Shown here in pieces: positions 1-24,292 of a stretch of 24,292 nucleotides of DNA (positions within the stretch are counted from its first letter, which is position 1; the number at the start of each line of letters is the position of its first letter). The notes under the pieces were generated by a model, which was given only the letters and a program-made list of their open reading frames with translations, was not told the origin of the DNA and searched no databases. The translations under genes and the position numbers were made by a program. The DNA comes from a virus, in IMG/VR virus record IMGVR_UViG_3300050035_000374, positions 1 through 24,292 of that record; one strand, 5' to 3'.

Positions 1-363
1 ATTCCTATCATTATAGTCTTTACTATCATGCCATTTAGTCCATAAATATTTTCCTACATCCTCTATAAAATAGTTATTAGACTTCTTTCCTCTTTTCTTT
101 TTATCGGCAAGTTCTGGATATCTTTCAGGATATAAGCTATATGCCTTTAATAGAAAAGAAGAACTATACTTATTATTAGGAAATTTATCAAGCATTTCAC
201 CAATAATTCGTTTTTCCATAAAGTCCACATCAATTTTAGAATATAGAATTACTCTATATCCGTGCTTAACATCTTTTCCAATATCATCTCGGTCTATGCC
301 AAGATTATCATATATATTTTCATAAGTTGGTAAATTTACTTCAAAATTATTATCTATTTCCAA
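1..363 (-). CDS. Unknown phage protein, 3' end outside the window (TTG start)
   Basis: An open frame of 121 codons runs without a stop from a TTG at 363-361 to the left edge, so the C-terminus is missing. The start is chosen because AAGAAGG lies about 5 nt before the TTG; the nearby ATG at 368-366 is in another frame and meets a stop after four codons. The protein begins MEIDNNFEVNLPTYENIYD and is mixed-charge, with a lysine-rich stretch (ADKKKRGKKS) near residues 97-106 and many Tyr and Asp residues. I do not recognise the family. A promoter-like motif lies at 400-409 and a terminator of the upstream gene at 433-463, so it probably starts its own transcript. That it is coding rests on frame openness, the RBS and the promoter-like motif. 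Confidence 0.6.
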   Translation of the reverse strand, partial: MEIDNNFEVNLPTYENIYDNLGIDRDDIGKDVKHGYRVILYSKIDVDFMEKRIIGEMLDKFPNNKYSSSFLLKAYSLYPERYPELADKKKRGKKSNNYFIEDVGKYLWTKWHDSKDYNDRN

Positions 364-399
364 AGCATACCTTCTTTAATTACTTAATTATAACTACAA

Positions 400-409
400 T
401 ATCGGATAA
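400..409 (-). promoter_or_regulatory. Promoter-like CGATA motif before the gene at 363
   Basis: On the minus strand this reads TTATCCGATA, followed by TTGTAGTTAT. It is a variant of the motif seen at seven other gene starts in the window. It lies 36 nt before the TTG start and after the terminator of the preceding gene, as expected of a promoter. The function is inferred from position and recurrence. Confidence 0.5.
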
Positions 410-432
410 ACTAAATTAATTCTTAATATAAA

Positions 433-463
433 AATACCCTAATTTAGTAAGAATTAGGGTATT
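433..463 (-). terminator. Rho-independent terminator
   Basis: A perfect 12-bp inverted repeat (AATACCCTAATT, 433-444, and its complement, 452-463) encloses a 7-nt loop. Read on the minus strand, the stem is followed by a T-rich stretch (TTTTTATATT, starting within the stem end). It sits 25 nt beyond the stop of the nuclease-like gene at 489-1556, so it would end the recA-nuclease transcript. Confidence 0.8.
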
Positions 464-488
464 CAATATAGTAAGTAAGAAATAAAAA

Positions 489-1556
489 TTATATAGTTAT
501 ATTCTCTATTTGCTTATTAATATATTCCTCTAAATTATTATTTTCAGTATATGGAATAATTATTAATTTTATATTATTTTCATTAGCATATATCACTTTA
601 TCCATATCTCTTTGAACTGCTTTTTCGTGAATTTCTAAAGTTTTATGAAAAAAATTAGGAAAGATATAATGCTGATAACCATGATACTCAAATGCTATTT
701 TATACTCTTCATTATAGCCATCAAATTCAAAAAACTTAGGTTTGTTGTAATAAAATCTTGTTTTATTAAACTTAATATTTAATCTTTGCTCTAAAAGTTC
801 TTTACATTTATATTCAGTTTTAAATGAAGAGCATTCAGGACACCAAGAAGCTTTATTTTTAATATTATCCCAACTTGCTTTCCATTTATGACCCTCTGAA
901 CACTCCCATAATAATTTAGTATTATTATTTACATAGTTAGTAGATAATAATGTCCCATTCTTATTATTAGCAAATTGTTGTAATTTTGATATATCTAGTT
1001 TACTACATCTGGCACATTCAGGACACCAAGAAGCTTTATTTTTAATATTATCCCAACTTGCTTTCCATTTATGACCCTCTGAACACTCCCATAAAAGTTT
1101 TTGTCTACTATTTATATAATCAGTAGATAGTAATTTTCCATTTTTATTTTCAGCATGTTTTTGTAACTCCTTTATATCACAAAGGGCGCTAGAACATGCT
1201 GGACACCAACTTTTGGAATTTTTAATGGAATTCCATTTTGTTCTCCACTGATGTCCTTTTTCACATTCCCATAACATTTTAGCAGTACTATTTATATATT
1301 TAGTGGATATTAATTTACCTTGTTTGCTAGAGGCAAATTGCTGTAACTCAATAATGCTACATTTTCGTAATTCAGCCCAGCACTCTGGACACCACGTTTT
1401 ACCAGTTAAAATACTATGCCACTCTGCTAACCACTGATGACCATCTTTACATTGCCACAATAATTTATGCTTATTATCAACATATTCTGTAGATAATAAT
1501 AAGCCACTTTTAGCAGCAGCAAAGGCCTGTAAGGTAGCTACATCATATTTTTTCAT
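489..1556 (-). CDS. Zinc-ribbon repeat protein with C-terminal Vsr-like (EDxHD/PD-(D/E)XK-type) nuclease domain; possible homing endonuclease
   Basis: The 355-residue protein has four repeats of about 60 residues (roughly 9-59, 70-121, 130-181, 191-242). Each has the pattern LLWECxxGHxWxxxWxxI followed by WCPxC, the signature of the probable zinc-ribbon family DUF4379. Residues 250-340 form a different domain with FEFDGYNEE (D279), AFEYHGYQHY (E290, H296), QRDMDK (D317, K320) and a final IKLIIIPY strand. This arrangement resembles the Vsr-fold endonucleases that include EDxHD homing enzymes. The likely role is sequence-directed DNA cleavage, with the zinc units binding DNA; no target is known. 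The ATG directly follows the recA stop codon with no gap, so the two are probably co-transcribed. A broken relative lies at 2780-3252. Domain recognition is good; the homing role is inference. Confidence 0.75.
   Translation of the reverse strand: MKKYDVATLQAFAAAKSGLLLSTEYVDNKHKLLWQCKDGHQWLAEWHSILTGKTWCPECWAELRKCSIIELQQFASSKQGKLISTKYINSTAKMLWECEKGHQWRTKWNSIKNSKSWCPACSSALCDIKELQKHAENKNGKLLSTDYINSRQKLLWECSEGHKWKASWDNIKNKASWCPECARCSKLDISKLQQFANNKNGTLLSTNYVNNNTKLLWECSEGHKWKASWDNIKNKASWCPECSSFKTEYKCKELLEQRLNIKFNKTRFYYNKPKFFEFDGYNEEYKIAFEYHGYQHYIFPNFFHKTLEIHEKAVQRDMDKVIYANENNIKLIIIPYTENNNLEEYINKQIENITI
832..911 (-). repeat. 80-bp direct repeat, copy 1 (zinc-ribbon unit 4)
   Basis: These 80 bases are identical to 1015-1094, at a period of 183 bp (61 codons). 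They encode the core of a zinc-ribbon unit, including KWKASWDNIKNKASWCPEC. The other two units of the same gene are clearly diverged, so this pair reflects recent unit duplication or gene conversion. Confidence 0.9.
1015..1094 (-). repeat. 80-bp direct repeat, copy 2 (zinc-ribbon unit 3)
   Basis: This is the second copy of the perfect 80-base repeat at 832-911. It lies in the same reading frame of the same gene. Confidence 0.9.
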
Positions 1557-2720
1557 TTAATCATCTATTCCAGATAAGTCAGCTATATCTCTAATATCAG
1601 AAGCATCAGGAAGAATAGCCTCTTCAGAACCAGCTGAAAAATTAAGTTTCTCACTATAGCAATTACGCATCATTTTTAGAAAATGCTGCTTATTTTCCTC
1701 AGACTCGTTAAATAGTTTAGTGAATGTATCAATAGAATTAAACTTTTTCTCGGAACCATCTGGCATGATAATAGTCTTCCAAGCAGCTTTACCCATATAA
1801 TCAGCATCATTTAATAAATCATAGACAATATGTGGATTGTAATAACCACGGTCGTCATAATACAAACGTAGCGGAATGGTCCTCCCTAAAGCAGCCGAGG
1901 ACTTACATTTTATTATTTTTGTTCTCACGAAATGACCAGAAGGAAGCTTGGGGTCAGAGCCTATAAATTTACCTCTATCCATAAATAATCTAGAAATACA
2001 GGCATAACGAACAGCATCTCCTCCAACAGTAGTATATACAGGTCCTTGCCAAGAACTAGTCATGCCACCAATTTGCTGTCTTACTTGATTTATAATTAAT
2101 ACAGCTAGGTTAGTCTCACGGCACAGCATTTTAGTTCGTTTTAGACCTTTTGAAATCATTTTAGCAGTCATGGCCACAGTGCTTGTCTCATAATCACTTT
2201 CTAATTCGGCCCTGGTACTTAATCCTGCCAGGGAATCTAAAACTACTAAACTAGGAACAGATATATTTTTACGCTGAATATAATTAGCGATTTTTTCAAT
2301 TTGAGCAAAAGCACGTTCTGCCAAATCCTCTACTGTAATAATACACTTTTTAGTGTCAACACCGAAATTTTCCATTCTAAACCGATCGCCTGACCCGCCC
2401 TCTGTGTCAATAAGGCAAGCAAGGCCACCAAGCTTCTGAACTTGAGCCAACATATGAATACCGAAGGAGCTCTTCCCCGACCCCTCTTTTCCCGAAATTT
2501 CTGCCATAGCTCCCTGTATAAGGCCTCCTCCAAGTAAGAAATCTAACGAATCTATTCCAGTTGGTATAAAAGACCTTACAAAGTCTTCATCATCTAGTGC
2601 TGTATTGCCACCAAATTCCTTTCTCAATTGGCTCTTAAATTCGTCAAGGTCATTAAAATTATCGGTAGCATTAATGATACTTATATCTCTATCTAATTTA
2701 TTTGATTTCTTAACTGCCAT
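1557..2720 (-). CDS. recA: RecA/UvsX-family recombinase
   Basis: The 387-residue strand-exchange ATPase would form filaments on single-stranded DNA for recombination-dependent replication and repair. Seen directly: Walker A GKEGSGKSS (about 77-85), the following LIDTEGG segment, Walker B SLVVLD (about 157-162) and the NQVRQQIGG motif (about 211-219) at the L2 DNA-binding loop. The C-terminus is acidic, as in bacterial RecA. The length is close to T4 UvsX and slightly longer than typical RecA; the Walker A is RecA-like rather than T4-like. The ATG at 2720-2718 is preferred because GGAG lies 7 nt upstream; a GTG two codons earlier sits too close to that site. A promoter-like motif lies 20 nt before the start. 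It is directly joined to the nuclease gene downstream. I see no intron in it. Confidence 0.95.
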   Translation of the reverse strand: MAVKKSNKLDRDISIINATDNFNDLDEFKSQLRKEFGGNTALDDEDFVRSFIPTGIDSLDFLLGGGLIQGAMAEISGKEGSGKSSFGIHMLAQVQKLGGLACLIDTEGGSGDRFRMENFGVDTKKCIITVEDLAERAFAQIEKIANYIQRKNISVPSLVVLDSLAGLSTRAELESDYETSTVAMTAKMISKGLKRTKMLCRETNLAVLIINQVRQQIGGMTSSWQGPVYTTVGGDAVRYACISRLFMDRGKFIGSDPKLPSGHFVRTKIIKCKSSAALGRTIPLRLYYDDRGYYNPHIVYDLLNDADYMGKAAWKTIIMPDGSEKKFNSIDTFTKLFNESEENKQHFLKMMRNCYSEKLNFSAGSEEAILPDASDIRDIADLSGIDD

Positions 2721-2740
2721 GTTCACTCTCCATAGTATAT

Positions 2741-2750
2741 TATCGACAAA
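2741..2750 (-). promoter_or_regulatory. Promoter-like motif TTTGTCGATA before recA
   Basis: On the minus strand this is an exact TTTGTCGATA, 20 nt before the recA ATG and immediately upstream of its Shine-Dalgarno site. If it is a promoter, the recA leader is very short. Confidence 0.6.
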
Positions 2751-2753
2751 TAT

Positions 2754-2806
2754 GAGAAAAGCCTTAGAAAACCTTGAGATTATATGCCCAAGGCAGTTAT
2801 TTTCTC
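2754..2806 (-). terminator. Possible long hairpin terminator upstream of recA
   Basis: GAGAAAAGCCTT (2754-2765) can pair with AAGGC (2790-2794) and TTTTCTC (2800-2806), giving a 12-bp stem with a 5-nt bulge. A smaller CCTTG/CAAGG stem lies inside. Read on the minus strand, it overlaps the end of the broken nuclease gene and leads into a U-rich stretch. It could stop read-through before the recA promoter-like motif. The pairing is visible; the function is inferred. Confidence 0.4.
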
Positions 2807-3252
2807 AGTAATGAAATTCTCTAAATTTCTCTCTTCAGTATAGGATATTATGATTAATTTTATATTACTTTCCCTAGCATATATCACTTTATCCATATCA
2901 CGTTGCTATTACTATTTTTAATACTATGCCAATGAGCTTTCCATTGATGCCCTTCTTTACATTCCCATAACATTTTAGTAAAACAATTTATGTATTCTGT
3001 AGATATTAACTTTCCTTCTTTATTTTTAGCATATTCCTGTAGTTCAATTATATCAGGTTTAGCCTTTCCAGAACAAAGTAAACACCAATTATCCTGACTT
3101 TTAATACTATTCCAACAAGCACTCCATTGATGACCCTTCTCACATTCCCATGACATTTTAGTATAACTATTTATGTATTCAGTAGATATTAACTTACCAC
3201 CTTTGATTGTGGCATGCTCTTGACATACTTTTATATCACATTTCCTAGACAT
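2780..3252 (-). pseudogene. Broken zinc-ribbon/Vsr-like nuclease gene (internal deletion and frameshift)
   Basis: This is a decayed relative of the gene at 489-1556. It starts at an ATG (3252-3250) with GGAGA 7 nt upstream and encodes two zinc-ribbon units, the first with WECEKGHQW and CLLC. After HSIKNSNS the frame runs into unrelated codons and stops at 2884. In another frame, starting at about 2906, the sequence resumes as QRDMDKVIYARESNIKLIII and continues to a TAA at 2782-2780, matching the C-terminal 40 or so residues of the intact protein. The end of the second zinc unit and most of the nuclease core are missing. One event deleting this segment out of frame explains what is seen. The open part could still make a 122-residue zinc-ribbon protein. 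Confidence 0.85.
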
Positions 3253-3281
3253 TTACTCTTCTCCATCTACCCTAATAAAAA

Positions 3282-3298
3282 ATAACTACAGCATCTGA
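3282..3298 (-). promoter_or_regulatory. Degenerate promoter-like motif before the broken nuclease gene
   Basis: The minus strand reads TCAGATGCTGTAGTTAT. It shares TGTAGTTAT and a preceding TCnGAT with the site at 400-409, but the CGATA core is lost. It lies about 30 nt before the start of the broken gene. It may be a decayed promoter, or the similarity may be chance. Confidence 0.25.
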
Positions 3299-3356
3299 AT
3301 TAAAGTTTTTATGAGAAAATATTCAAATAATATTTATTAATCTACTATATAAGAAA

Positions 3357-3378
3357 AGCCTGGAATATTTCCCAGGCT
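3357..3378 (-). terminator. Rho-independent terminator after the SSB gene
   Basis: AGCCTGG (3357-3363) pairs with CCAGGCT (3372-3378) across an 8-nt loop. On the minus strand the stem is followed by TTTTCTTATAT. It begins 20 nt after the stop codon of the gp32-like gene. Confidence 0.8.
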
Positions 3379-3397
3379 ATTCCTACTTAAATCAACA

Positions 3398-4258
3398 TTA
3401 ATCTTCTAACATCTTGCGCATCTCGTCAAGGTCCAGTTCACTATCAACTTCTGGTTCCTTTGACTGAGCCTTTCGTGGTTCTGGCTTATATTTATCCAAC
3501 ATCTCATGCTCTTCCTCAGAAGGATCGGCTTCTTCATCAGCCTCTACTGGAGTTGAACTAAATTCCTTAAACTTAGCAGCAAGTTCAGTATCATTGAGAG
3601 GAGAAACAACACTAGTGAGGTCTGGAGAAGCATCAACAAGAGAGTCCCAAATTTTCTTAGCATTTTTGCCATCAAAGGCAGCAGATGAATCGCCGAAATC
3701 CCAGCTGATCGTTGTAACCGTATTCTTTCCTGTGGCTTTGGTTTTTAGAAGCTCCACATCACGACCGGTCTGAAAATCAACAAAATCAATTTCCTTTTCT
3801 AGCTTGCTTTCAATAAGGCTCATTACCGACTGAGAAGAAGCTCTAACAATCTTAATATCATCAGAGGAAATGTTAGCTGGATCAATTTCATTTGGCTGAA
3901 AACCAACTAGCAAATAATGCTTTTTAGCAAATAACTTCTTAGCTGCTTCGAGATATTCCTTGTCATTAGTCTTTGTAAACTTACGATAAGTCTTTGAGGC
4001 TAAATCACAGAAGGGGCAGAAACGATCCTCTGTTTGACGAGGGCAGGCAATACTCTCAAAATGACCATCAGGGAATGTGACGGCATGATGATTAAAAATA
4101 CTAATAGGAAGCTCTAGATTTTCTGACTTTAGTGGTAGAAATCTCAGAGTGTACTTATGACCAGCATCATACTTCATCCAATTGAGACCAGAAGAAGCTT
4201 TCTTGGCCTTTGACTGTTCCATCTTCTGCTTAAACTTTTCGAAATTAGTAGTAGCCAA
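3398..4258 (-). CDS. Single-stranded DNA-binding protein, T4 gp32-like
   Basis: The protein would coat single-stranded DNA during replication and recombination and work with the RecA-type protein encoded nearby. The gp32-type zinc site is visible: His at 57/58, then ACPRQTEDRFCPFC with Cys at 72, 81 and 84. It follows an N-terminal basic segment (FEKFKQKMEQSKAKKA) and a YTLRFLP strand. The C-terminal third is acidic and ends DSELDLDEMRKMLED, like the gp32 tail that recruits other replication proteins. I prefer the TTG at 4258-4256 (286 residues) because AAAGGA lies 6 nt upstream and the resulting N-terminus resembles gp32. The frame also extends to a GTG at 4300-4298 (300 residues), but that has no good ribosome site. 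A terminator follows, and a structured leader precedes. Confidence 0.88.
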   Translation of the reverse strand: MATTNFEKFKQKMEQSKAKKASSGLNWMKYDAGHKYTLRFLPLKSENLELPISIFNHHAVTFPDGHFESIACPRQTEDRFCPFCDLASKTYRKFTKTNDKEYLEAAKKLFAKKHYLLVGFQPNEIDPANISSDDIKIVRASSQSVMSLIESKLEKEIDFVDFQTGRDVELLKTKATGKNTVTTISWDFGDSSAAFDGKNAKKIWDSLVDASPDLTSVVSPLNDTELAAKFKEFSSTPVEADEEADPSEEEHEMLDKYKPEPRKAQSKEPEVDSELDLDEMRKMLED

Positions 4259-4336
4259 TTTATTTCCTTTTGCGAACTTAATCGCTGAAAAGATACCCAC
4301 TTAGGCATCAAAATTATTAATCATATAATTAATTCA

Positions 4337-4379
4337 GTAGTTTCTTGGTAGCTGTTTCTCTGTCTGCTACCCTTGCTAC
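4337..4379 (-). promoter_or_regulatory. Structured leader hairpin upstream of the gp32-like gene
   Basis: Within the leader, GGTAGC and GCTACC (4366-4371 and 4347-4352 on the minus strand) form a perfect 6-bp stem with a 13-nt purine-rich loop. GTAG and CTAC outside it (4376-4379 and 4337-4340) extend the stem past an internal loop. An A/T-rich stretch of about 75 nt follows up to the TTG start. T4 gene 32 represses its own translation through a leader pseudoknot followed by unstructured A/U-rich RNA, so a similar operator is plausible here. That role is inference. Confidence 0.4.
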
Positions 4380-4387
4380 ATAACTAA

Positions 4388-4397
4388 TATCGGTAAG
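4388..4397 (-). promoter_or_regulatory. Promoter-like motif CTTACCGATA before the gp32-like gene
   Basis: The minus strand reads CTTACCGATA followed by TTAGTTATG. This variant matches the sites at 11178 and 24152 (ACCGATA). It lies 129 nt before the preferred TTG, the longest leader of the set, which leaves room for the hairpin at 4337-4379. Confidence 0.55.
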
Positions 4398-4431
4398 CAC
4401 TCAGAAAACATGAGAAAAAATTTTTGAAAAT

Positions 4432-4968
4432 TTACCACATAACCTGACCCATAGGAACGAAATCACTAGGGTGAAGGGCATAATCATCAGGTTCAACTAC
4501 ATCATTATACTTACACCAGGAGGTATTAGCACTAACTTCAAGCATATTAGCCACTAATACTGAGCAGTCCATTGCCCTATAACGAAATAGCTGCTGAAAA
4601 ATAGGCTTAAATGTCCAACAACCAAAGGTAAGCCTATGTAAGAAATGGTTTAAGGCAGAATCAGCTAAACATAAATATCCATAAGGCTCATGTCTCCAAA
4701 AACTTTTTTCATTAATTTCTGGAAGATTAAAAGTTGGTCTAAAACAAAAAACTTCCTCAGCATCTTCTAAATAATAAAAAGGAGCATAGGATAAAGTTCT
4801 CAAAGTAAGTGCTTCAAGAATGTATAGCTTTCCATCTACCTCTCTGACAGCAGCTGAATGGACAAAAGAACTTCCTTCAATCAATCTAATTAGTTTCTGA
4901 AGGAAAGTTGCTTTTTCTTTATGTGTAAAAAGTAAAATATCGCCATGACGCAATTCGGTATACAGCAT
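4432..4968 (-). CDS. Permuted papain-like (YiiX/DUF830-type, NlpC/P60 superfamily) amidase or peptidase
   Basis: The 178-residue protein has the circularly permuted papain arrangement. An N-terminal GDILLFT motif (residues 9-15) is followed by SSFVHSAAV with the candidate catalytic His37, LYILEAL with Glu52, and a C-terminal DCSVLVANML containing the candidate nucleophile Cys135. Such enzymes cleave amide or thioester bonds in lipids, peptides or peptidoglycan; the substrate here is unknown. No signal peptide is seen, so it probably acts in the cytoplasm or reaches the wall by lysis or virion delivery. The ATG has an ideal AGGAGG site 6 nt upstream. It is the first minus-strand gene of the divergent region, with a candidate TATAAT box at 5038-5043. 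Fold assignment is fairly good, role unknown. Confidence 0.7.
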   Translation of the reverse strand: MLYTELRHGDILLFTHKEKATFLQKLIRLIEGSSFVHSAAVREVDGKLYILEALTLRTLSYAPFYYLEDAEEVFCFRPTFNLPEINEKSFWRHEPYGYLCLADSALNHFLHRLTFGCWTFKPIFQQLFRYRAMDCSVLVANMLEVSANTSWCKYNDVVEPDDYALHPSDFVPMGQVMW

Positions 4969-5037
4969 TAAACCTCCTAAAATTAATTATTTAGGATACC
5001 AAATATTTATTTTCAAAAACCCTAAAGTTTCTCCAAT

Positions 5038-5043
5038 ATTATA
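5038..5043 (-). promoter_or_regulatory. Candidate -10 box (TATAAT) for the amidase gene
   Basis: A perfect TATAAT on the minus strand lies about 70 nt before the ATG at 4968. The best -35 match (GCGACA) is 19 nt further upstream, a poor match and spacing. Given the AT-rich background, this is a weak to moderate host-type promoter call. Confidence 0.35.
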
Positions 5044-5060
5044 CGATAATAAAGCAGCAA

Positions 5061-5070
5061 CTTGTCGCTT
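5061..5070 (+). promoter_or_regulatory. Weak variant of the promoter-like motif in the divergent region
   Basis: CTTGTCGCTT followed by AAATATTAAC shares TTGTCG with the motif at 7462 and others but lacks the GATA end. It points toward the plus-strand operon starting at 5264, about 190 nt away. Low confidence. Confidence 0.2.
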
Positions 5071-5154
5071 AAATATTAACCTTCAAGCAAAGCAAAGAAA
5101 GACTAAACAAACAAGTAAAACCTAAAAGATAGAAGTTCAAAACAAAAATAAATC

Positions 5155-6406: not shown

Positions 6407-7461
6407 TGGTAAGTCCTAAATTCATGGATTCACAAAATGTTCTCTTAATTGATGGACACAACCTCTTAATAAGGGTAATGTTTTCTAAAAATAAGGGTTC
6501 AGTAGTGATATCTGAACCTGAGTTAATACAGGAATGTGCTGAAATTTTTATTAATCAAATCAGTCTTTGTATCAGGAAATATTCTTGTAGGCGACTTTAT
6601 GTAGCATTTGATAATGGTGGCTCTATAAGAAAGAAAGCTATCTTTGAAGCATATAAAGCAAATAGACCTGCCTCAGGAACTAACTATGGACAAGTTTCCG
6701 CTTTTAATGATACTAGTAGTGATTTATTTAGTAAGTTAAAAGAAAAAGTATTAGAGCTTTGTAATATACTTAATCTAACTGTTTTCTGTGAGTATGGAAT
6801 AGAAGCAGATGATTACATAGGAATTGCTACTAAAGAGCTTACTAATATAGGTAAGCAAGTTATTATTCTGAGTAATGATAGCGACTTTCTTCAGCTTGTT
6901 AGAACCCCTTCTGTAATTTGTTCTATTCCCTATAATAAATCAGAGGTATCTTTAGATAATTTTACTCGTTACTTTTCTGAATTGCCAAAAACAAAAGGAG
7001 TAACTATTAGTAGTTATGAATATTTGTTTTATAAGGTTATAGTTGGAGATACTTCAGATAATATTAATGGAATTAAAGGAATTGGTTATAAGACTTTATT
7101 TAAATTAATGAAAGAACAATTACCATTAGAAAATAAATCTACTTTATATATTTATGTTAAAAATAATTTAGATTATATTAAACTTCTTTCTTCACGGAAT
7201 TCAACTAAATTAGAGAAACTTATTCACGAGAATATAGAATTACTTGAACGTAATTATAAGTTAATAGATTTAACTTCTTCTGTAATTTCTTCAAATACAG
7301 TATCCTTAACCTTAAAAAAGTTATTAGAGGTCGGTGAGCTTCCTGGAAAAAAAGAAACCATTCATAAATTTCATGAGTTATTTCCATTAGCTACTAATTA
7401 TATAGACTTTGTTATCAGCACTTTATTTGCCTTTAAACCGGTCTATAAAGAACCTGAGTAA
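6406..7461 (+). CDS. 5'-3' exonuclease / RNase H of the T4 Rnh (FEN) family
   Basis: The 351-residue 5' nuclease would remove RNA primers from Okazaki fragments. Conserved acidic sites are visible in order: LLIDGHN (D16), YVAFD (D69), the basic EAYKANR helix (81-87), GIEADDYIG (E133, D135, D136), LSNDSDF (D158, D160) and GDTSDN (D215, D218). The helix-hairpin-helix GIKGIGYKT follows at 222-230. Length is slightly above T4 Rnh (about 305). The GTG start overlaps the stop of the upstream gene by one base and has GGAG 5 nt before it; the ATG at 6424 is a weaker alternative. It lies between its apparent degenerate paralogue and the primase gene, so it is part of the lagging-strand set. Confidence 0.9.
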   Translation: MVSPKFMDSQNVLLIDGHNLLIRVMFSKNKGSVVISEPELIQECAEIFINQISLCIRKYSCRRLYVAFDNGGSIRKKAIFEAYKANRPASGTNYGQVSAFNDTSSDLFSKLKEKVLELCNILNLTVFCEYGIEADDYIGIATKELTNIGKQVIILSNDSDFLQLVRTPSVICSIPYNKSEVSLDNFTRYFSELPKTKGVTISSYEYLFYKVIVGDTSDNINGIKGIGYKTLFKLMKEQLPLENKSTLYIYVKNNLDYIKLLSSRNSTKLEKLIHENIELLERNYKLIDLTSSVISSNTVSLTLKKLLEVGELPGKKETIHKFHELFPLATNYIDFVISTLFAFKPVYKEPE

Positions 7462-7471
7462 TTTGTCGATA
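7462..7471 (+). promoter_or_regulatory. Promoter-like motif TTTGTCGATA before the primase gene
   Basis: An exact TTTGTCGATA directly after the stop of the nuclease gene, 19 nt before the ATG and 8 nt before GGGAGG. It indicates a new transcript starting inside the replication block. Confidence 0.6.
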
Positions 7472-7490
7472 CTTACTGTGGGAGGTTGCA

Positions 7491-10792: not shown

Positions 10793-11177
10793 GGCCAATC
10801 TATATGAGAATGATTATGATTATTTTGAAGAAGAGTTAGAAGCTCCAGTAACTAAATTTAAACATATAACTAATACAGTAGTTAAAAAAATAAAACCAAT
10901 AGTTATACAGACAATAGGAGTTACTGAAGCTGAAAAAAAGTTAGAATTACAAAATAAAGTCTTTGGTGGAAAAATATCAGATAAAACTGTCTCTTGTAAT
11001 TGTAATAAATGTGGTCATCATATTAATGGAATATTAGTAAGTACTATTTATTCTCCCATTTCTGATTTGGTAACTCCCTTTATTTCTTATGAGTGTTCTT
11101 ATTGTAAACACATAGGCTATAGAAGTGTTAAAGAAAAATCATTAATAGCAAAAGAATTTGATGCAATTTATTTCTAA
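10764..11177 (+). CDS. Small zinc-knuckle protein
   Basis: The 137-residue protein has an acidic N-terminal stretch (YENDYDYFEEELEAP), a basic middle and a probable zinc ribbon made of SCNCNKC (C78, C80, C83) and ECSYC (C111, C114), 28 residues apart. AGGA lies 8 nt before the ATG, and the start overlaps the previous gene. The following gene at 11210 has a similar double-knuckle plan, so the two may be distant relatives. It may bind nucleic acid or stabilise an assembly; no specific role is supported. Confidence 0.5.
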   Translation: MSKKTKQQLKANLYENDYDYFEEELEAPVTKFKHITNTVVKKIKPIVIQTIGVTEAEKKLELQNKVFGGKISDKTVSCNCNKCGHHINGILVSTIYSPISDLVTPFISYECSYCKHIGYRSVKEKSLIAKEFDAIYF

Positions 11178-11187
11178 TTTACCGATA
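11178..11187 (+). promoter_or_regulatory. Promoter-like motif TTTACCGATA
   Basis: This variant starts just after the stop of the previous gene and lies 22 nt before the ATG at 11210. It could drive the following zinc-knuckle gene and the large virion genes beyond it. Confidence 0.55.
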
Positions 11188-11209
11188 TTTTAATAAAGGA
11201 CTTTAACTT

Positions 11210-11551: not shown

Positions 11552-11595
11552 AATAGTAATTAAATGTAGTAAGTTTTTACATCTGAAGGATTGTG

Positions 11596-16660: not shown

Positions 16661-18772
16661 ATGACTCTTAATAAAGAGGATTTATATAAATCTATTTTAA
16701 CAAGACTCGATAAAAGAGAATTGGAGGAAGTTTTAGCTGCTCCTAAGATAGCTGGCTTCGGATTAGATACTGTTCCAATGAAGCCAAAAAAAACAACTGG
16801 TTCTACTGTAAGTGATTTTTTACAGAACACTAAAGATGACTATTCCAAGCAACATATAGTTCCTCATTTACTTAATACTGATATAATGAAGCATTTTGGG
16901 CAACTAACTCCAGAACAACAGGCCCAATTACAGCAACAAGCAATAGATTATAGTAATAAAATAAAAGAGGTTAATTGGACACAATATTTTTATAACACTG
17001 ATATTTTACGTCAAAAAAGAGTTAGATTATATACCTTTCTAAAAAAAGCTTCTGTTTCCTCTGTAGCACCTACAACAGAAAGTTTTTATACTAATTATGC
17101 GTGTAATTTATTTGAGGCCTCCATATCTACCACTCCAGGAGATAGATCAGGTGACTATTTATTTTTAAACTCTAATGAAGAAACTAGAGCCTATGTTAGA
17201 GCAGATTTAGAATCTAATTTATATGTAGGAACTTCTAGTAAGGGTCCTAGATATTTTGAGTTTATACAAGGACACTTAACTGTTAATACAGAAGAGGCTA
17301 GAAGAGTAGTCTCTTTTTCTTCCTCTATATTAGAAGAAATAAAAGCAAAAGTAATTTCAGAGTTGACTCCCTATTTTAATAGTCCATCTGAAAAGGACTT
17401 TTTAAATAATATATCTAATAATCAACTTCCTTTAGTTTTTCTTGATTCTCTTATGTTTGGATTAGTGGACACTTTAAATTTTCCATCAACTAAGGATTAT
17501 GGAACTGGTCATCAAGCAGGTAATGGATTGCTTGGAAATCCTATACTATCTAATAGTAATATAGAACCAGCATTAAGTGAAAATATAAAAAATAATTTAA
17601 CAAAATGTATTCATAACACTAATCCTTATCTAAAAAATATCTCTAATCTATTACAAGTAATGAGTAAATCTCGTTCTAAAAACACAGTTTATAATTCATT
17701 AACTAACGTAATCATAGGAAATTTTGCCAATCTTAATGCTAAGTTAGCATCAGTTTGTGGTGTAAGTAATTTTGATTTTACTCCTATTTTTTGTTCGGAA
17801 GATTCAGAAAATAGAATATCCACTCTTATATCATTAGGAGAAAATGAATTTTTTAGGTCTTTTAGTAATGTAGAGAGAACAATTCCAAATCCATTTATTA
17901 GACTTACCTTTACTAAAGCTTCTTTAAGTTATAATAAGGATAAACAAGCATATTTGTTAATGACTAAAAATGTTAGTGGTATTAGTTGTAAATCTAAATC
18001 CACAGAAAGATATTCTACAACTAGTAATTGGCATGGCTTAGGAATTCCTTTGGACCAACATAATTTTATTTTACAAAAAGCCCAACAGGATTTTGGTAAT
18101 ATAGATGCTTCTTCTTATCTTTCTGTATTAGCCTCCCTAGACACAAGAGGAGAGACTGCTCAAAATATATACTCAGGAGGCTCTGAAAACTCTACTGCTG
18201 TTCAGTTTCAACAATTTTTAGCCTCTATTTATCAATCTGATGGTAGTTTTAAAACTAATTTTGTAGTATTTGCTTTAATACCAAGAATATTTTTTCAGTA
18301 TAATTCTGACTATACTACTTTAAAAGGATTTAAATCAAGTACTAGACCATTACATTTTAGTAATTTATATGACAAAGTAAGAACTACGACTATAGATAGT
18401 GTATATACCCCAGTAAATCCTGAGGTTAATCTAATGGCTACGGAGGATATGGAGCTATTAGACGATATTAGAGATAGATTTTTACAAATAATGTATAACT
18501 TTAATACCACTACTTCACAGGTAGAGGATTTAAAGAATGATTTTATAGCCTTAACTACAAATATTATAAATGGATACTGGACTTGTGATAAATTTATTAT
18601 ACGTCATGAATCGGATTCCTCAGTATATAGTCAGGATTTAGGTTTATTTAATCCACTTAATGAAATTAAGGGTGATTTACAGTTTAATAGGGAATTACTA
18701 GAAAAATCTAATATATTAACTTTACGAGAAAATTGGATTTCAGAGCAAGAAAAATTAAGGGAAGGTAAGTAA
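16661..18772 (+). CDS. Large unknown protein, probably a virion protein (703 residues)
   Basis: The gene starts 1 nt after the stop of the 1687-residue gene and overlaps the next start in TAATG, so all three are likely co-translated. The N-terminal part is helical with a Gln-rich run (LTPEQQAQLQQQ, about 84-95). The middle has mixed strands such as YFEFIQGHLTVNTEEARRVV, and the C-terminus is charged and helical (LRENWISEQEKLREGK). There is no membrane segment or enzyme motif. Family not recognised; paired structural roles with the upstream protein are inferred from location and size. Confidence 0.65.
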   Translation: MTLNKEDLYKSILTRLDKRELEEVLAAPKIAGFGLDTVPMKPKKTTGSTVSDFLQNTKDDYSKQHIVPHLLNTDIMKHFGQLTPEQQAQLQQQAIDYSNKIKEVNWTQYFYNTDILRQKRVRLYTFLKKASVSSVAPTTESFYTNYACNLFEASISTTPGDRSGDYLFLNSNEETRAYVRADLESNLYVGTSSKGPRYFEFIQGHLTVNTEEARRVVSFSSSILEEIKAKVISELTPYFNSPSEKDFLNNISNNQLPLVFLDSLMFGLVDTLNFPSTKDYGTGHQAGNGLLGNPILSNSNIEPALSENIKNNLTKCIHNTNPYLKNISNLLQVMSKSRSKNTVYNSLTNVIIGNFANLNAKLASVCGVSNFDFTPIFCSEDSENRISTLISLGENEFFRSFSNVERTIPNPFIRLTFTKASLSYNKDKQAYLLMTKNVSGISCKSKSTERYSTTSNWHGLGIPLDQHNFILQKAQQDFGNIDASSYLSVLASLDTRGETAQNIYSGGSENSTAVQFQQFLASIYQSDGSFKTNFVVFALIPRIFFQYNSDYTTLKGFKSSTRPLHFSNLYDKVRTTTIDSVYTPVNPEVNLMATEDMELLDDIRDRFLQIMYNFNTTTSQVEDLKNDFIALTTNIINGYWTCDKFIIRHESDSSVYSQDLGLFNPLNEIKGDLQFNRELLEKSNILTLRENWISEQEKLREGK

Positions 18773-19035
18773 TGGAAAACCAACCAGCTACATTCTCACA
18801 GCAAGAAATGACACTAGCAGAAATGATGTTTATCTTAAGTGCTGGTTTTTATGTTGAGGCTTCTAATATAGGACAAAAGGCCCTGGAAGAAAAAAATCAA
18901 AATTTCGTAGTAGTTAGAAATGAAAATGACCCAACAGTAAAGGATGAGGAAGCTAAAGCAGAGTCTGAAATGGCCTCGATGGAGTCGGAGGAGGCCTCAT
19001 TAGAGCCACCTCCCGAAGATTCTTCTATCAGTTAA
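18772..19035 (+). CDS. Small acidic-tailed protein of unknown function
   Basis: The 87-residue protein has a helical N-terminal half (LAEMMFILSAGFYVEASNIG) and a very acidic C-terminal half (KDEEAKAESEMASMESEEAS) ending in a Pro-rich tip. Its ATG shares one base with the upstream TAA and has AAGG 6 nt before it. The acidic tail may serve in protein contact or assembly. Function unknown. Confidence 0.55.
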   Translation: MENQPATFSQQEMTLAEMMFILSAGFYVEASNIGQKALEEKNQNFVVVRNENDPTVKDEEAKAESEMASMESEEASLEPPPEDSSIS

Positions 19036-19042
19036 TCCTGAA

Positions 19043-19052
19043 TTTGTCGATA
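19043..19052 (+). promoter_or_regulatory. Promoter-like motif TTTGTCGATA before the nuclease gene
   Basis: An exact TTTGTCGATA followed by CTAGTATTAC, 8 nt after the preceding stop codon and 23 nt before the TTG start. Confidence 0.6.
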
Positions 19053-19075
19053 CTAGTATTACCTCGGAGGCTTCG

Positions 19076-20470
19076 TTGTTGGACGAAACTACTATAAATT
19101 ATATACAGCCCAGTTTAAAATTTTCTATAAAGAAATATTTTCCTCTAAAAGAGAAAACTTTACTGTATGATGCTCTGCTATTCTGTAGCCTAGTGTCCAA
19201 GACACCATCCTTTGCCTCATCTTCTGATTTGGATGCTTTTTCTATTCTGATAGACAACTGTAAGCAGTGTAATATCTCATTAGGTAAATATTTAAGTTGT
19301 GCTTACTCCTATATTCAAAAATATACCTCACCTGGACACAAACTTAGTTTAGGATATTTTCTAAACGATTCAGTAGTTGAGTATTGTAGTAAATTTATAG
19401 ATAATTTTACTACTTCTTCTTTATTATTCGAACAAGTTAAGGATGACATTCTTCTAACTGAAAAAAATATAAGAGAAATTGCTGTCACGGATTCTGTTTC
19501 TTATGAGGATGCCTTTAATAAATATAAAAAGGAAGGAAAATTAACTTCTTATTTTTTAGCCTATAAAAGATATTGTCACTCTCCTCTTGTAGCATCCTCG
19601 GGTTCTTTATATTTAGATAAACTTTCAGTTATTTTGGAGCCTTTCTTCACTTATATTTTAGCTAAAAATAGCATATATGTTTCAGATAAAATAGAGGAAT
19701 GGAATAATTCTAAGTTAGAAGATTTTAGTTTCTGTCCTAAATATTTTACAGATAGATATATTACAAATGAATTGGTAGAGGAATGTTTAGGTAATGAGGC
19801 TACAAAACAAGGTTCTAAATTACATCTTATTTTTGAGACTATTTTTACCAGATACAATAAAAGTAAAACTAAAAATCTTAAAAATATAGCCTCTAACTAT
19901 TTTTCTTCTAATAAATATTTAGACATCAAGAATGAGTTAGCAGAACATACTCCATTTATAGAAAGTTTATTCTTGGATGATACTTCTATTTTTTATCAGT
20001 TAATAAATCCTTCATCTATTGTATTAGTAGAACATTTAATGAAGGGTAATTTGTCGAATTATGACTTTTATGGAACTGCTGATTTAATTATAATTAATGA
20101 AAATATAGCTCATATTTTAGATTATAAATCATCTAAATTAGATGAGAAATATTTAGAAAAAAACAATACTAAATATAATAAACAAATTAGCTTATATGCT
20201 AAGCTTCTAAAAAATGAATATCCTAAGTTAGAAACAATTGATGGCACCTTAATTTATACTAGAGGTCTATTACATCCATTTAAGGAATTGGCTTTTAATA
20301 TTGATATAGATAGGGCAAAAGACATAACAAAGATTAAACAAACTTTAAAGTCTGGTATACTTCTTCCTAATACTAGAAGTTGTTTTTTATGTAGGCATCC
20401 TAATTGTATTTTTAGAACTAGGGAAAGTATTTGGGACATTAATGGGAATAAAAAGAAAAAGATTAATTAA
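19076..20470 (+). CDS. PD-(D/E)XK nuclease, RecB/Cas4-type, with probable Fe-S cluster
   Basis: The 464-residue protein has the RecB-family nuclease core in its second half: GSKLHLIFE (H250), FYGTADLI (D336), HILDYKSS (D349, K351) and KQISLYAKLL (Q370, Y374). Cysteines at FSFCPKYF (C220) and CFLCRHPNC (C436, C439, C444) bracket this core, as in the 4Fe-4S nucleases of the AddB/Cas4 group. The first 200 residues are helical and unassigned. It probably degrades or processes DNA ends with exonuclease polarity; the substrate is unknown. TTG at 19076 (or the adjacent TTG at 19079) is the start, with GGAGG 5 nt upstream. It lies in a structural neighbourhood but has its own promoter-like motif. No cas genes are nearby. 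Confidence 0.85.
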   Translation: MLDETTINYIQPSLKFSIKKYFPLKEKTLLYDALLFCSLVSKTPSFASSSDLDAFSILIDNCKQCNISLGKYLSCAYSYIQKYTSPGHKLSLGYFLNDSVVEYCSKFIDNFTTSSLLFEQVKDDILLTEKNIREIAVTDSVSYEDAFNKYKKEGKLTSYFLAYKRYCHSPLVASSGSLYLDKLSVILEPFFTYILAKNSIYVSDKIEEWNNSKLEDFSFCPKYFTDRYITNELVEECLGNEATKQGSKLHLIFETIFTRYNKSKTKNLKNIASNYFSSNKYLDIKNELAEHTPFIESLFLDDTSIFYQLINPSSIVLVEHLMKGNLSNYDFYGTADLIIINENIAHILDYKSSKLDEKYLEKNNTKYNKQISLYAKLLKNEYPKLETIDGTLIYTRGLLHPFKELAFNIDIDRAKDITKIKQTLKSGILLPNTRSCFLCRHPNCIFRTRESIWDINGNKKKKIN

Positions 20471-20487
20471 CTTTGATGAGGTATAGT

Positions 20488-21084
20488 ATGAATTTAAAAA
20501 TAAGAGACTTTCTTCAAGAAGCTATTGATGATGTAAATCTTCCCAAAGAACCTACAAGTGCCCAGGAAGTAAGTGGTGCCCCAATGTCGGATGCTGATTT
20601 TCCTGCTGCTACAGGTGCTTCTGATGCTGCCCCTGCTAAGCCTGGACTAACTGCCCCTCAAATGCCTTCTCCATCAGGTTCTGCTTCTAATACTGTTCAG
20701 AAAGATGTAATTAATCCAGAACTTATACGTGCTATAACCATTCCACTAAAGAGTTATGTAGGTTCTTTTGAAAAACTCTTTGATAAAGATATGACTGTAG
20801 ATAACGCAGTTCCTCATATTGATGAGTTTTTAAAGATATTAGCTGGCTGTGCTGATAGTATAGCAACATTGGCTGGTGGACAGGCTACAGAGCCTCCAAT
20901 TGAGCCATCAGTTGCCCAAGCACCCATTGAGCCCACTGCTGAACCAGTTCCCACAGAACAGCCTGCAGAGGCCTTATCAGCTCCTTTAGAGGCCCCTTCT
21001 GCTGGTGGTCAAGAAGGATATACTGATCCATTTGGTCATGCAGATGAGTCTCCATATACTAATCCACTTGAGGCTGCTTATTAA
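20488..21084 (+). CDS. Ala/Pro/Glu-rich low-complexity protein, possible virion or scaffold protein
   Basis: The 198-residue protein starts at ATG 20488, with GAGG 6 nt upstream; upstream TTG and ATG codons in frame lack spacing. Residues 1-15 (MNLKIRDFLQEAIDD) form a short helix. A low-complexity stretch rich in Ala, Pro and Ser precedes a central helical segment (about 75-130). The last 65 residues are again Ala/Pro/Glu repeats with PIEP motifs. There are no enzyme motifs. Its start resembles that of the 1687-residue protein. It overlaps the next gene by one base in TAATG. Scaffold or linker roles would fit the composition, but nothing is certain. Confidence 0.55.
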   Translation: MNLKIRDFLQEAIDDVNLPKEPTSAQEVSGAPMSDADFPAATGASDAAPAKPGLTAPQMPSPSGSASNTVQKDVINPELIRAITIPLKSYVGSFEKLFDKDMTVDNAVPHIDEFLKILAGCADSIATLAGGQATEPPIEPSVAQAPIEPTAEPVPTEQPAEALSAPLEAPSAGGQEGYTDPFGHADESPYTNPLEAAY

Positions 21085-21377
21085 TGTCTTCCTATACTAC
21101 TAAATTTAATGTAGGCGATACAGCTTATAGAATTTATCATGATAATCCAGTATCTGTTAATATTACTGATATTTATATTCATGATTCTTTAAGTAATGTT
21201 GGTTGCCCTGAAGTTTCGTATAAGATTTCCTATGCTCTAAATGCCTCTGGAGTAGGAAATCCAAGGCCTGGACCTACTTTATTTAATGAGCATGAGCTAT
21301 TTTATTTAGATGAAATTACAGGTATTCTGACGGTTATTTTAGCACAAAAAACAGCTAATTTACAGGCCTTACAATAA
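21084..21377 (+). CDS. Small beta-rich protein, tandem paralogue A
   Basis: The 97-residue protein has FNVGDTAYRIY near the start, then VNITDIYIHDS, VSYKISYAL and EHELFYLDE, ending KTANLQALQ. This spacing recurs in the next gene (FSVNDIAYFVI, VKITNVYLK, VMYDLLRL), so the two are tandem paralogues. The VGD-x-AY pattern is reminiscent of small SH3-like barrels, but I cannot name a family. It overlaps both neighbours by one base (TAATG). Confidence 0.55.
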   Translation: MSSYTTKFNVGDTAYRIYHDNPVSVNITDIYIHDSLSNVGCPEVSYKISYALNASGVGNPRPGPTLFNEHELFYLDEITGILTVILAQKTANLQALQ

Positions 21378-21655
21378 TGACTACACAACAACTTACAGCA
21401 AATTTTTCGGTAAATGACATAGCTTATTTTGTTATTTTTGCTACTGCTAATTTATATGCTGTAAAGATTACTAATGTGTATTTAAAAACTATAGACAGCC
21501 AATCTACTGTTATGTATGATTTGTTAAGATTAGATAAAAATTTTATAATTCAAGCAATACCTCAAAATCAAGTGCTTACCTTTACAGAAGCAAAAACTAG
21601 TTTGATTAATTATTTACAAACACAGCTTTCTATAGTAAATAACTTAACGGCATAA
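21377..21655 (+). CDS. Small beta-rich protein, tandem paralogue B
   Basis: The 92-residue protein is related to the preceding gene by position-matched motifs: FSVNDIAYFVI, then VKITNVYLK, then VMYDLLRL and a C-terminal helix (KTSLINYLQTQLSI). The copies are well diverged, so the duplication is old. The ATG overlaps the upstream stop. Function unknown, possibly a virion component. Confidence 0.55.
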   Translation: MTTQQLTANFSVNDIAYFVIFATANLYAVKITNVYLKTIDSQSTVMYDLLRLDKNFIIQAIPQNQVLTFTEAKTSLINYLQTQLSIVNNLTA

Positions 21656-22834: not shown

Positions 22835-23245
22835 ATGAGTATAACTTTTAAAATAACTACTGGAACTATAACTAATGATGAGGATTCCACTGTCTTAACT
22901 AGTAGTGCTTATGCTGGTAATGATAGTAGAATACCTCAAAATCCAAATAGAATACATGGTAAAAATAATCCAAATATGTGCTCGGTTCATTTTATAGGCC
23001 CATTACCACCTGGAAAATATAATATAGGCTCCTTTGAAAACCATCCAGTAGTAGGCGAAAATAGTGCTCAATTAACTCAAATTTCTGGAAATACCTTTGG
23101 AAGGTCTGCTTTTTTTATTCATGGACAAGAAGCTCCAAATGGTTCTAATTATTTACAGGAATCAGAAGGCTGTATAGTTGTTCCACATAATGATAGACTA
23201 AAAATAGCAGCCCTTGCTCCAAAAATTTTAACTGTAATAGTATAA
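22835..23245 (+). CDS. L,D-transpeptidase-like peptidoglycan enzyme (DUF2778/Tlde1-like)
   Basis: The 136-residue protein matches the DUF2778 pattern: an AYAGND segment, GPLPPGKYNIG (55-65), NTFGRSAFFIHG with H96, and QESEGCIVVP with the candidate nucleophile C113, followed by R121. Members of this family act on peptidoglycan peptides as L,D-carboxypeptidase or transpeptidase-like enzymes, and some are type VI secretion toxins. No signal peptide is seen, so release would need a holin, lysis or injection. AGAGGT lies 5 nt before the ATG. Together with the membrane protein upstream it suggests host cell-wall attack or remodelling. Which bond it cuts is unknown. Confidence 0.78.
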   Translation: MSITFKITTGTITNDEDSTVLTSSAYAGNDSRIPQNPNRIHGKNNPNMCSVHFIGPLPPGKYNIGSFENHPVVGENSAQLTQISGNTFGRSAFFIHGQEAPNGSNYLQESEGCIVVPHNDRLKIAALAPKILTVIV

Positions 23246-23258
23246 TTATTATTTTATA

Positions 23259-23268
23259 TTTGTCGATA
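23259..23268 (+). promoter_or_regulatory. Promoter-like motif TTTGTCGATA before the small-gene cluster
   Basis: An exact TTTGTCGATA, 13 nt after the L,D-transpeptidase stop and 18 nt before the ATG at 23287. It probably drives the cluster of five small genes. Confidence 0.6.
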
Positions 23269-23286
23269 ATAGATTTTGGAGACTGT

Positions 23287-23463
23287 ATGAATGATGAACA
23301 AAGTATTACGTTTACACAACAAGAATTACGTGTTTTGTTAGATATATTAAATAAGTATAGTATTTCAATAAGTGTTAGTGATTTATCAAAGATACAAAAG
23401 CAAGAAATACAGTCTCCATTATTAACTATTTTTGACAAGTTAACTGAATCACAAGGGAGCTAA
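23287..23463 (+). CDS. Small unknown protein (58 residues)
   Basis: The start is the ATG at 23287, with GGAG 5 nt upstream; the frame opens earlier at a TTG that lies inside the promoter-like motif and is unlikely to be used. The protein is helical (QQELRVLLDILNKYS) with a Ser/Ile-rich middle and no Cys. It is the first gene of the small-gene cluster. Function unknown. Confidence 0.6.
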   Translation: MNDEQSITFTQQELRVLLDILNKYSISISVSDLSKIQKQEIQSPLLTIFDKLTESQGS

Positions 23464-23466
23464 TAT

Positions 23467-23529: not shown

Positions 23530-23563
23530 ATTATATCAATAAGTTAATGAAAGGATATTATAA

Positions 23564-23713: not shown

Positions 23714-23743
23714 TTAGTAATGTAATTTAAAGGAGATAATAAG

Positions 23744-23857
23744 ATGGTAGATAAAAAGAAAGACTCAGGTAAGAAACTTCCACCCTGGCTTAAGAAGGAT
23801 GGTAAGGACGACAAGAAGATGGATAAGAAAGATAAGAAGGGTAAGGATTGTAAGTAA
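23744..23857 (+). CDS. Small Lys/Asp-rich protein (37 residues)
   Basis: ATG at 23744 has AAAGGAGAT about 6 nt upstream, a very strong ribosome site. The sequence has PPWLKKDGK in the middle and is almost entirely Lys, Asp and Gly after that, ending KKGKDCK. AAG codons dominate, as in the gene before it. Function unknown; it is likely disordered and well expressed. Confidence 0.55.
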   Translation: MVDKKKDSGKKLPPWLKKDGKDDKKMDKKDKKGKDCK

Positions 23858-23876
23858 TCTTTATTTAGGTGCTACA

Positions 23877-24017
23877 TTGCCATATAAATCAGAGAAACAA
23901 AGAAAATTTTTTAATGTTAATAAAGGTAAGTTAGAAAAATCTGGTGTTGATGTAGATGAATGGAACAAAGTTAGTAAAAATAAAAAATTACCAAAAGTAG
24001 CACCTAAAAAGAAATAA
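23877..24017 (+). CDS. Small phage protein of the MPYKSxxQRKFF type
   Basis: The TTG at 23877, with AGGTG 5 nt upstream, gives a 46-residue protein starting MPYKSEKQRKFF, followed by a variable segment and VDEWNKVSKNKKLP. This order (PYKSxxQRKxF, then a DEW and a KLP segment) is familiar from short uncharacterised phage proteins. The open frame extends much further upstream but runs through the preceding gene in another frame. It is the last gene before the strong terminator at 24106. Role unknown. Confidence 0.6.
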   Translation: MPYKSEKQRKFFNVNKGKLEKSGVDVDEWNKVSKNKKLPKVAPKKK

Positions 24018-24033
24018 CCGGCAATTATTGACT

Positions 24034-24134
24034 TTGACATGTGTATGAGATAGTTGCTAAATATCAAGCTTGTCGCACATGACCACTTGATTTTGATTAT
24101 ATCTTAGAGACCCGTTAATTTGGGTCTCTTTTTT
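24034..24134 (+). ncRNA. Possible small RNA between a sigma70-like promoter and a strong terminator
   Basis: TTGACA (24034-24039) and TAAATA (24058-24063), 18 nt apart, form a plausible host-type promoter, though the -10 match is poor. Downstream, ATCAAG (24063-24068) and CTTGAT (24086-24091) bound a hairpin containing a GTC/GAC pair, and transcription would end at the terminator at 24106-24134. The transcript would be roughly 65 nt. No start codon with an RBS is seen here. The simpler reading is that this is only the end of the upstream operon. Confidence 0.3.
24106..24134 (+). terminator. Strong rho-independent terminator
   Basis: AGAGACCC (24106-24113) and GGGTCTCT (24122-24129) form a perfect 8-bp stem with an 8-nt loop, followed by six T residues (24129-24134). 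It ends the plus-strand small-gene cluster. Confidence 0.92.
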
Positions 24135-24151
24135 GTAATTTTTTGTATGAT

Positions 24152-24161
24152 TTGACCGATA
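24152..24161 (+). promoter_or_regulatory. Promoter-like motif TTGACCGATA before the gene at the right edge
   Basis: The motif is followed by CTCGTTATTAC and lies 17 nt after the terminator and 70 nt before the ATG at 24232. The leader between them can form an imperfect hairpin (AATTGC at 24177-24182 with GCAATT at 24204-24209). The terminator-motif-gene order strongly suggests a promoter. Confidence 0.6.
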
Positions 24162-24231
24162 CTCGTTATTACATAAAATTGCTATTCCTGTGGCTAGGGT
24201 ATCGCAATTAAATATACAGGAGTCGAAGCAC

Positions 24232-24292
24232 ATGCCAGAAGCACTAAATGACGAAGCATTACAGTATCTTCTAAATAAGAACGTAGCGGTAG
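24232..24292 (+). CDS. Start of an unknown gene, 3' end outside the window
   Basis: ATG at 24232 has AGGAG 9 nt upstream and opens a frame of 20 codons (MPEALNDEALQYLLNKNVAV) to the window edge. It has its own promoter-like motif and a long structured leader, unlike the co-transcribed genes before it, which may mean separate and strong expression. The product cannot be named from this fragment. Confidence 0.6.
   Translation, partial: MPEALNDEALQYLLNKNVAV

Follow-up and report, generated by a model that had tools for sequence, protein, structure and literature searches.

The 24,292-base virus record IMGVR_UViG_3300050035_000374, whose full length we refer to as the window, contains in the gaps between its genes a recurrent motif with the core CGATA, which raises the question of what this signal does and which protein reads it. 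The first-pass annotation had suggested a promoter served by a phage sigma factor or a phage RNA polymerase. The sites, here termed class A, very probably do constitute a promoter class, as judged from their position and orientation, their recurrence in a related phage, their enrichment in hold-out sequence, a -35 element at a fixed distance and the location of sites after stop codons and hairpins. A sigma gene is encoded as well, although the sequence does not by itself decide for its product as the reader.

Distribution of class A sites

Four exact copies of TTTGTCGATA, which had been placed at 2741, 7462, 19043 and 23259, are found at these positions, compared to an expected number of 0.02 and with none of 100 shuffles reaching four, and the four reported variants ending in CCGATA also exist, with CGATA at 400 and 4388 on the minus and at 11183 and 24157 on the plus strand. 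That these eight sites are intergenic and aim at the next gene is reflected in the distribution of the refined form YCGATAHT, which occurs 11 times in the window (shuffle mean 2.03, maximum 7 in 100 shuffles), eight times intergenic in the sense of the following gene, twice coding-sense and once coding-antisense, with 1,630 of the 24,292 bases being intergenic. The bare core is found 23 times (nine intergenic-sense, one intergenic-antisense, nine coding-sense, four coding-antisense) and ranks first in its intergenic-sense count among 60 permutations of its own letters, where the next reaches five and the median is one; its ninth intergenic-sense copy, at 5044 on the plus strand, is without the extended form. 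A loose motif with two mismatches allowed was found 42 times with a mean of 28.7 in shuffles, which is barely over chance, and the signal thus sits in the tight form.

Other properties ascribed to the sites held in part. Their distance to the start codon, given as 18–129 nucleotides, is confirmed at its upper end but begins at about 14, the values varying with the start that is assumed. The GTTAT said to follow many of them is present at three of the eight (400, 4388 and 24157) but does not form a conserved column over the 34 sites aligned below. Similarly, hairpins precede the sites at 400 and 24157 and a stop codon adjoins those at 7467 and 11183, as claimed, but terminator-like hairpins in total are not above shuffles (7 versus 5.6 and 4 versus 4.7).

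A megablast search of the window against a phage collection of 50,697 records gave no match. The same phage is found on further IMG/VR contigs, namely G002 (80,322 bases), G006 (48,960 bases), G001 and G005, with G002 being 99.4% identical to the window across 20.6 kb and 91.5% across its first 2.9 kb. A relative, contained in G003 (67,598 bases) and G004 (29,471 bases, 99.99% identical to G003 over 24.3 kb), shares 75–78% DNA identity with the window phage where megablast aligns, which amounts to a few kb in total. The lineage, whose T4-like virion proteins comprise terminase, portal, major head protein, sheath, tube and gp25-, gp15- and gp19-type families, is one of uncultivated contractile-tailed phages. 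Beyond the window we analysed 174,368 bases (G002, G006 1–21298, G003 and G004 1–5150), with genes called by a simple custom script, which shortened some starts and missed small genes. CGATA is found 182 times in this set (36 intergenic-sense, 3 intergenic-antisense, 86 coding-sense, 57 coding-antisense). A motif search with strand counts in related contigs had been named as a check on the promoter proposal, and its outcome is favourable: in the hold-out part, which excludes the segment with homology to the window and contains 7,363 intergenic and 143,137 coding bases, 20 of 39 copies of YCGATAHT are intergenic-sense and a single one is intergenic-antisense, with 13 coding-sense and five coding-antisense copies.

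The same core emerged from an unseeded test of 5-mers in 101 upstream regions, which regions between divergent genes enter from both sides, where CGATA showed the strongest strand asymmetry (33 versus 8). CGATANT is found there 30 times in sense and seven times in antisense orientation, and single changes at its six fixed positions lower the sense count to values between 0 and 10. Among 58 reciprocal-best ortholog pairs, a site at most 160 nucleotides upstream is present in both members of 10 pairs, in one member of 6 and in neither of 42 (Fisher p 6e-7), and in seven of the ten pairs with both sites the distance is equal within 6 nucleotides, the exceptions being SSB, G002 56250 and G006 4780. 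In three one-sided pairs the relative's site precedes an extra gene that heads the operon. This applies upstream of UvsX and of primase, and also, with a variant of the motif, to a homing endonuclease that precedes the sigma gene.

A two-part element and its likeness to sigma-28 promoters

The structure of class A was defined in an alignment of 34 sites, consisting of the 36 intergenic-sense CGATA rows minus G002 73875 and 73990 (minus strand) and including the G003 13415 row before the portal ortholog, which is without T at +6 and may be a chance occurrence. Around the CGATA, which is fixed by selection, G is found at -2 in 20 sites, C or T at -1 in 30 and T at +6 in 31, with +5 divided between A (12) and C (14). 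Further upstream, C or T occupies -22 in 28 sites, T -21 in 29, A -20 in 16 and A -19 in 22. The -21 column carries 0.64 bits compared to a maximum of 0.45 for any column across 1000 dinucleotide shuffles, and the match to TAAA is maximal at a spacer of exactly 15 nucleotides (mean 2.44 of 4, next 1.62), where 17 of the 34 sites match in at least three of four positions, compared to at most seven at spacers of 9–14 and 16–21. The hold-out portion of 26 sites behaves equivalently, with T at -21 in 22 and the peak again at 15 nucleotides (13 of 26). Class A is thus a weak -35 YTAAA, 15 nucleotides and a -10 GYCGATANT, and the earlier statement that no -35 box consistently accompanies the motif does not hold, since TAA starts at exactly -21 in five of the eight window sites and T at -21 is the top upstream column of the wider set. 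The boxes of the other three (4388, 11183 and 19048) are poor.

These elements and their spacing match TAAA-N15-GCCGATAA of sigma-28, whose consensus is quoted as TAAAGTTT-N11-GCCGATAA (PMC7286023, PMC2859248), a resemblance that the first-pass annotation did not mention. The -10 element GCCGATAA of sigma-28-dependent promoters is present at class A sites, and their TAAA at 15 nucleotides is recovered as an average. In a scan with the consensus at a threshold of at least 10 of 12 matches we found 14 intergenic-sense copies versus one reversed, and 32 coding-sense copies versus 14, which illustrates that the resemblance is evident in the average and faint in individual sites. Class A thus has the -35 TAAA, the 15 nucleotides and the -10 GCCGATA in common with the flagellar promoters of sigma-28 (FliA), from which it differs by its occurrence in a phage ahead of replication and metabolism genes, by the frequent T at -1 (10 of 34), the conserved T at +6 and the weak -35, where the GTTT part of the FliA element is not conserved. 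The TTGACA and TATAAT of primary sigma-70 promoters are not a feature of class A, whose -10 is CGATANT. It equally differs from the late promoters of T4, which are described as lacking a -35 element and which are read with the late sigma factor gp55 (PMC2988020). Since class A has a -35, the closer analogue of the T4 late promoters is a second motif, class B, which is without this element.

Class B, AATTAAnTnTA, occurs 32 times intergenic-sense, four times intergenic-antisense, 12 times coding-sense and once coding-antisense, although part of its intergenic-sense copies may be due to chance or mis-called starts, since seven of the 32 overlap a called ATG. Its shorter form AATTAAnTn is found 58 times in sense and 16 times in antisense orientation without a conserved -35 column, and it precedes the major head, sheath and tube genes, whose upstream gaps are free of class A sites. 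Located near virion and other genes, AATTAAnTnTA is probably a late promoter class.

Candidate readers of the two promoter classes

In the model that we infer for promoter activity, start point, timing and the assignment of sigma factors to promoters, class A sites would make up one phage promoter class built like sigma-28 promoters, with transcripts starting just before the ribosome-binding site. This class would drive genes of replication, recombination, nucleotide metabolism and homing endonucleases together with the phage sigma gene, and its reader would be the host core RNA polymerase with a sigma factor of sigma-28-like specificity, most likely the diverged sigma of the phage, which would be seeded early and then act in feedback on the class A promoter of its own gene. 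Virion genes would use the separate single-box class AATTAAnTnTA. Taken as a whole we advance this statement tentatively, at slightly below an even chance, and within it the phage sigma is narrowly favoured as reader of class A.

The sigma gene is the first of the window, where positions 1–363 on the minus strand encode the first 121 residues of a 326-residue protein that is whole in G002, with residues 2–121 being identical. By its region 2 it is predicted to be a diverged phage-encoded factor of the sigma-70 family. The region 2 match covers residues 133–170, past the window edge, and was obtained in three of five records (PF04542 in G002, G003 and G004, 24.4–24.8 bits), with none in the window itself; a second scan gave 22 and 23 bits, so that the scores as a whole reach the curated Pfam cut-off of 24 or fall slightly short of it, and TIGR02937 matched below its cut-off. 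Region 4 (PF04545) was found in none of the five records at E values up to 1, although a strongly diverged copy could escape detection. Weak matches extend to SigF- and SigB-type factors, sigma-32, FliA/WhiG and the T4 late-sigma family. Structure prediction contributed little, as AlphaFold models with mean pLDDT of 51.4 and 38.0 are too poor to be informative and a Foldseek search with the first of them returned no match at E up to 0.001. Among sequences, phmmer against the PDB gave five, all at E 0.44 or worse, and tblastn in the phage collection two records at E 0.7, which are annotated as sigma-70 region 2.

Its role as reader is favoured by the presence of the gene in both species, with 74% identity of the protein between G002 and G003, by the group-3 families among its weak matches and by the finding that, in the searches run, both the sigma and the motif were recovered from this lineage only. 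UvsX, primase, sigma and terminase as queries recovered this lineage, with terminase additionally matching proteins at 25–37% identity, and a search of genome contigs gave no match. A strict promoter-plus-ribosome-binding-site pattern matched 88 viral stretches, 80 of which were screened for YCGATAHT together with 13 distant terminase loci (L038–L050). Among the top 45 loci, the three with three or four intergenic-sense sites all belong to this lineage, as does one of the five with two sites (L107), and in the other four (L057, L105, L043 and L045) no shared class A geometry was seen. In L057, an unrelated viral contig of 186 kb, GCCGATAATA lies at 7818 and 12309 in the spacer of apparent sigma-70 promoters (TTGAC ... 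TAGAAT), in an operator-like arrangement. Two control phages, Microcystis phage Mel-JY01 (100 of 190 kb) and LR756511 (100 of 595 kb), each contain one intergenic-sense site, with one and no intergenic-antisense sites, respectively. The latter record, of 595 kb, is also the sole match in the phage collection to the major head protein of G002 (L013:17295-18899), at 27% identity.

Several observations weigh against this model. Coding-sense copies exceed coding-antisense copies in the hold-out set (13 versus 5), and the motif is therefore not limited to gene starts. Three sites fall within the virion gene block of G002 (9749, 37165 and 44861), and the last of them is upstream of an HNH gene that is followed by the portal gene. 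Since the portal is next after this class A-led gene, it could be read from that site; the upstream gaps of portal and terminase measure merely 5 and 2 nucleotides. Individual sites have weak -35 boxes, and the phage sigma shows no detected region 4, yet class A has a -35. The protein also weakly matches the T4 late-sigma family phrog_234, which at the same lax limit matched in 7 of 14 control genomes as well. Finally, the sigma gene is itself under class A, which would better fit a sigma of the next tier, i.e. of class B.

The last three points, with the lack of a conserved -35 column in class B and the T4-like virion proteins, equally speak for an alternative where a host factor of the sigma-28 family reads class A and the phage sigma acts as a gp55-like late factor on class B, so that the middle genes of the phage would run on a flagellar-type sigma of the host. 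The close match to the consensus with its exact spacing would find an immediate explanation, but we consider this alternative unlikely, if still the strongest of the competing accounts. Against it, a cyanobacterial host is hinted at by one DUF3326 gene (L024:447-1442, G006 20447-21442; E 4e-52), which has no match in the phage collection and is found in one of 14 control genomes, that of Synechococcus elongatus as the cyanobacterium of the set. Cyanobacteria are not known to have sigma-28. The SigF promoter reported for Synechocystis PCC 6803, with TAGGC and GGTAA, is unlike class A (PMC2758279), and the two control phages are without the motif, though their hosts may differ from that of this phage.

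Less probable still, and in our view doubtful, is recognition by the primary sigma of the host assisted by a phage activator or sigma-appropriating protein, as in the middle promoters of T4, where the host sigma is helped by MotA and AsiA. GATANT would retain the two positions that matter most in the -10 of sigma-70 promoters, with YTAAA close to the canonical -35 spacing, but changes towards TATANT at the C or G are not tolerated (in the 101 upstream regions CTATANT is found 10 times sense and 10 times antisense, CAATANT five times each), sigma-70-type promoters in the window are not above shuffles (64 versus 62.4 and 57 versus 59.8), and the scans showed neither a MotA nor an AsiA family, a pooled one being represented by the best 25 of 86 families. 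The phage RNA polymerase that had been proposed as the other possible reader was not retained, as no such family was found in the same general scans; its absence is not established, since 25 of 86 families were listed and the relative entered the scans with few of its proteins. The scans covered 99 proteins from G002 and G006 1–21298 with five skipped, of which 73 entered pooled scans (best 25 of 86 and 25 of 26 families) and the other 26 were scanned singly or via their window counterparts. That the sites are not promoters but leader RNA elements or operators for a phage DNA-binding protein, as the location of many of them 14–40 nucleotides ahead of a start codon might suggest, is very unlikely in light of the second element exactly 15 nucleotides upstream, distances of up to 129 nucleotides, sites following terminator-like hairpins and the lack of a match in an Rfam scan of the window.

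Genes behind the sites and relation to known systems

On the minus strand of the window, the promoter assigned to the sigma gene (398–425) contains the -10 TCCGATATT at 398–406 and the -35 TAAG at 422–425, with the hairpin 464–432 just upstream, that of UvsX (phrog_97; 2739–2766) the -10 GTCGATAAT at 2739–2747 and the -35 TAAG at 2763–2766, and the site of the SSB gene (phrog_1192; 4386–4413) the -10 ACCGATATT at 4386–4394 and a poor TCAT at 4410–4413. On the plus strand, the primase gene (phrog_47) follows a promoter at 7446–7473 (TAAA 7446–7449, GTCGATACT 7465–7473), a 113-residue gene at 11210 the site 11162–11189 (ACCGATATT 11181–11189, poor TGCA) and an exonuclease-family gene (phrog_69) at 19076 the site 19027–19054 (GTCGATACT 19046–19054, poor ATCA). 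A small gene at 23287 is preceded by 23243–23270 (TAAT 23243–23246, GTCGATAAT 23262–23270) and the ribonucleotide reductase gene starting at 24232, named from its G002 copy, by 24136–24163 (TAAT 24136–24139, ACCGATACT 24155–24163) with a hairpin at 24106–24129 upstream. The reductase gene is preceded by both classes, with the class B box AATTAAATATA at 24206–24216 on the plus strand being closer to it. Another class B box, AATTAAATGTA at 11558–11568 on the same strand, lies ahead of the gene of a 1688-residue protein (11593–16659), which like the following 703-residue protein (16661–18772) has no PHROG match, and motifs of the AATTAAnTnTA type are found on the minus strand at 4978–4988 and 4324–4334.

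Named genes behind class A encode the sigma factor, UvsX, SSB, primase, the exonuclease-family protein, SbcD, a class II (B12-type) ribonucleotide reductase, the HNH endonucleases G002 36074-37144 and 43742-44839 and, in the relative, a dNMP kinase homolog, and thus mostly belong to replication, recombination, nucleotide metabolism and HNH functions. The window also holds, at 2884–3413, a 122-residue repeat-type relative of the HNH/homing endonuclease at 489–1556; its segment 2906–3413 replaces about 128 nucleotides of G002 and resembles a homing-endonuclease remnant. A tRNA-Pyl (cta) called by ARAGORN in the relative (L018:5725-5802, G003 25725-25802), inside an intergenic inverted repeat, is probably spurious.

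Phage sigma factors with intergenic motifs of their own are already known from phiEco32, 7-11 and T4. In the account of PMC4331800, the former two encode a sigma factor of their own and serve middle and late genes through a motif that recurs between genes, and thus resemble this phage in both respects, but their motif is a single box (TAATGTATA, with a TGATGT core), whereas class A is two-part and sigma-28-like. The likeness to T4 concerns the virion genes and the weak match of the phage sigma to the late-sigma family. A sigma-28-type promoter class in a phage was not recognised in the top-ranked open-licence literature, where PMC6282759 concerns flagellar genes of the host. It appears somewhat more probable than its contrary that a T4-like lineage has taken up the promoter grammar of sigma-28 for its whole middle regulon next to a box-only virion class, in either variant of the reader, i.e. 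host sigma-28 or a small phage sigma without canonical region 4 that reads a two-part promoter. Since the phages carry a sigma factor of their own, the reader of the signal becomes a testable question.

Collectively, the genes of this phage fall roughly into two halves, one for replication and one for the virion, according to their promoter class, and a single recognised sigma gene is there to be assigned. If the likeness to sigma-28 is functional, it would either tie phage development to a motility-type regulon of the host or reflect the convergence of a phage sigma on the same promoter, and class A would be a candidate orthogonal promoter.

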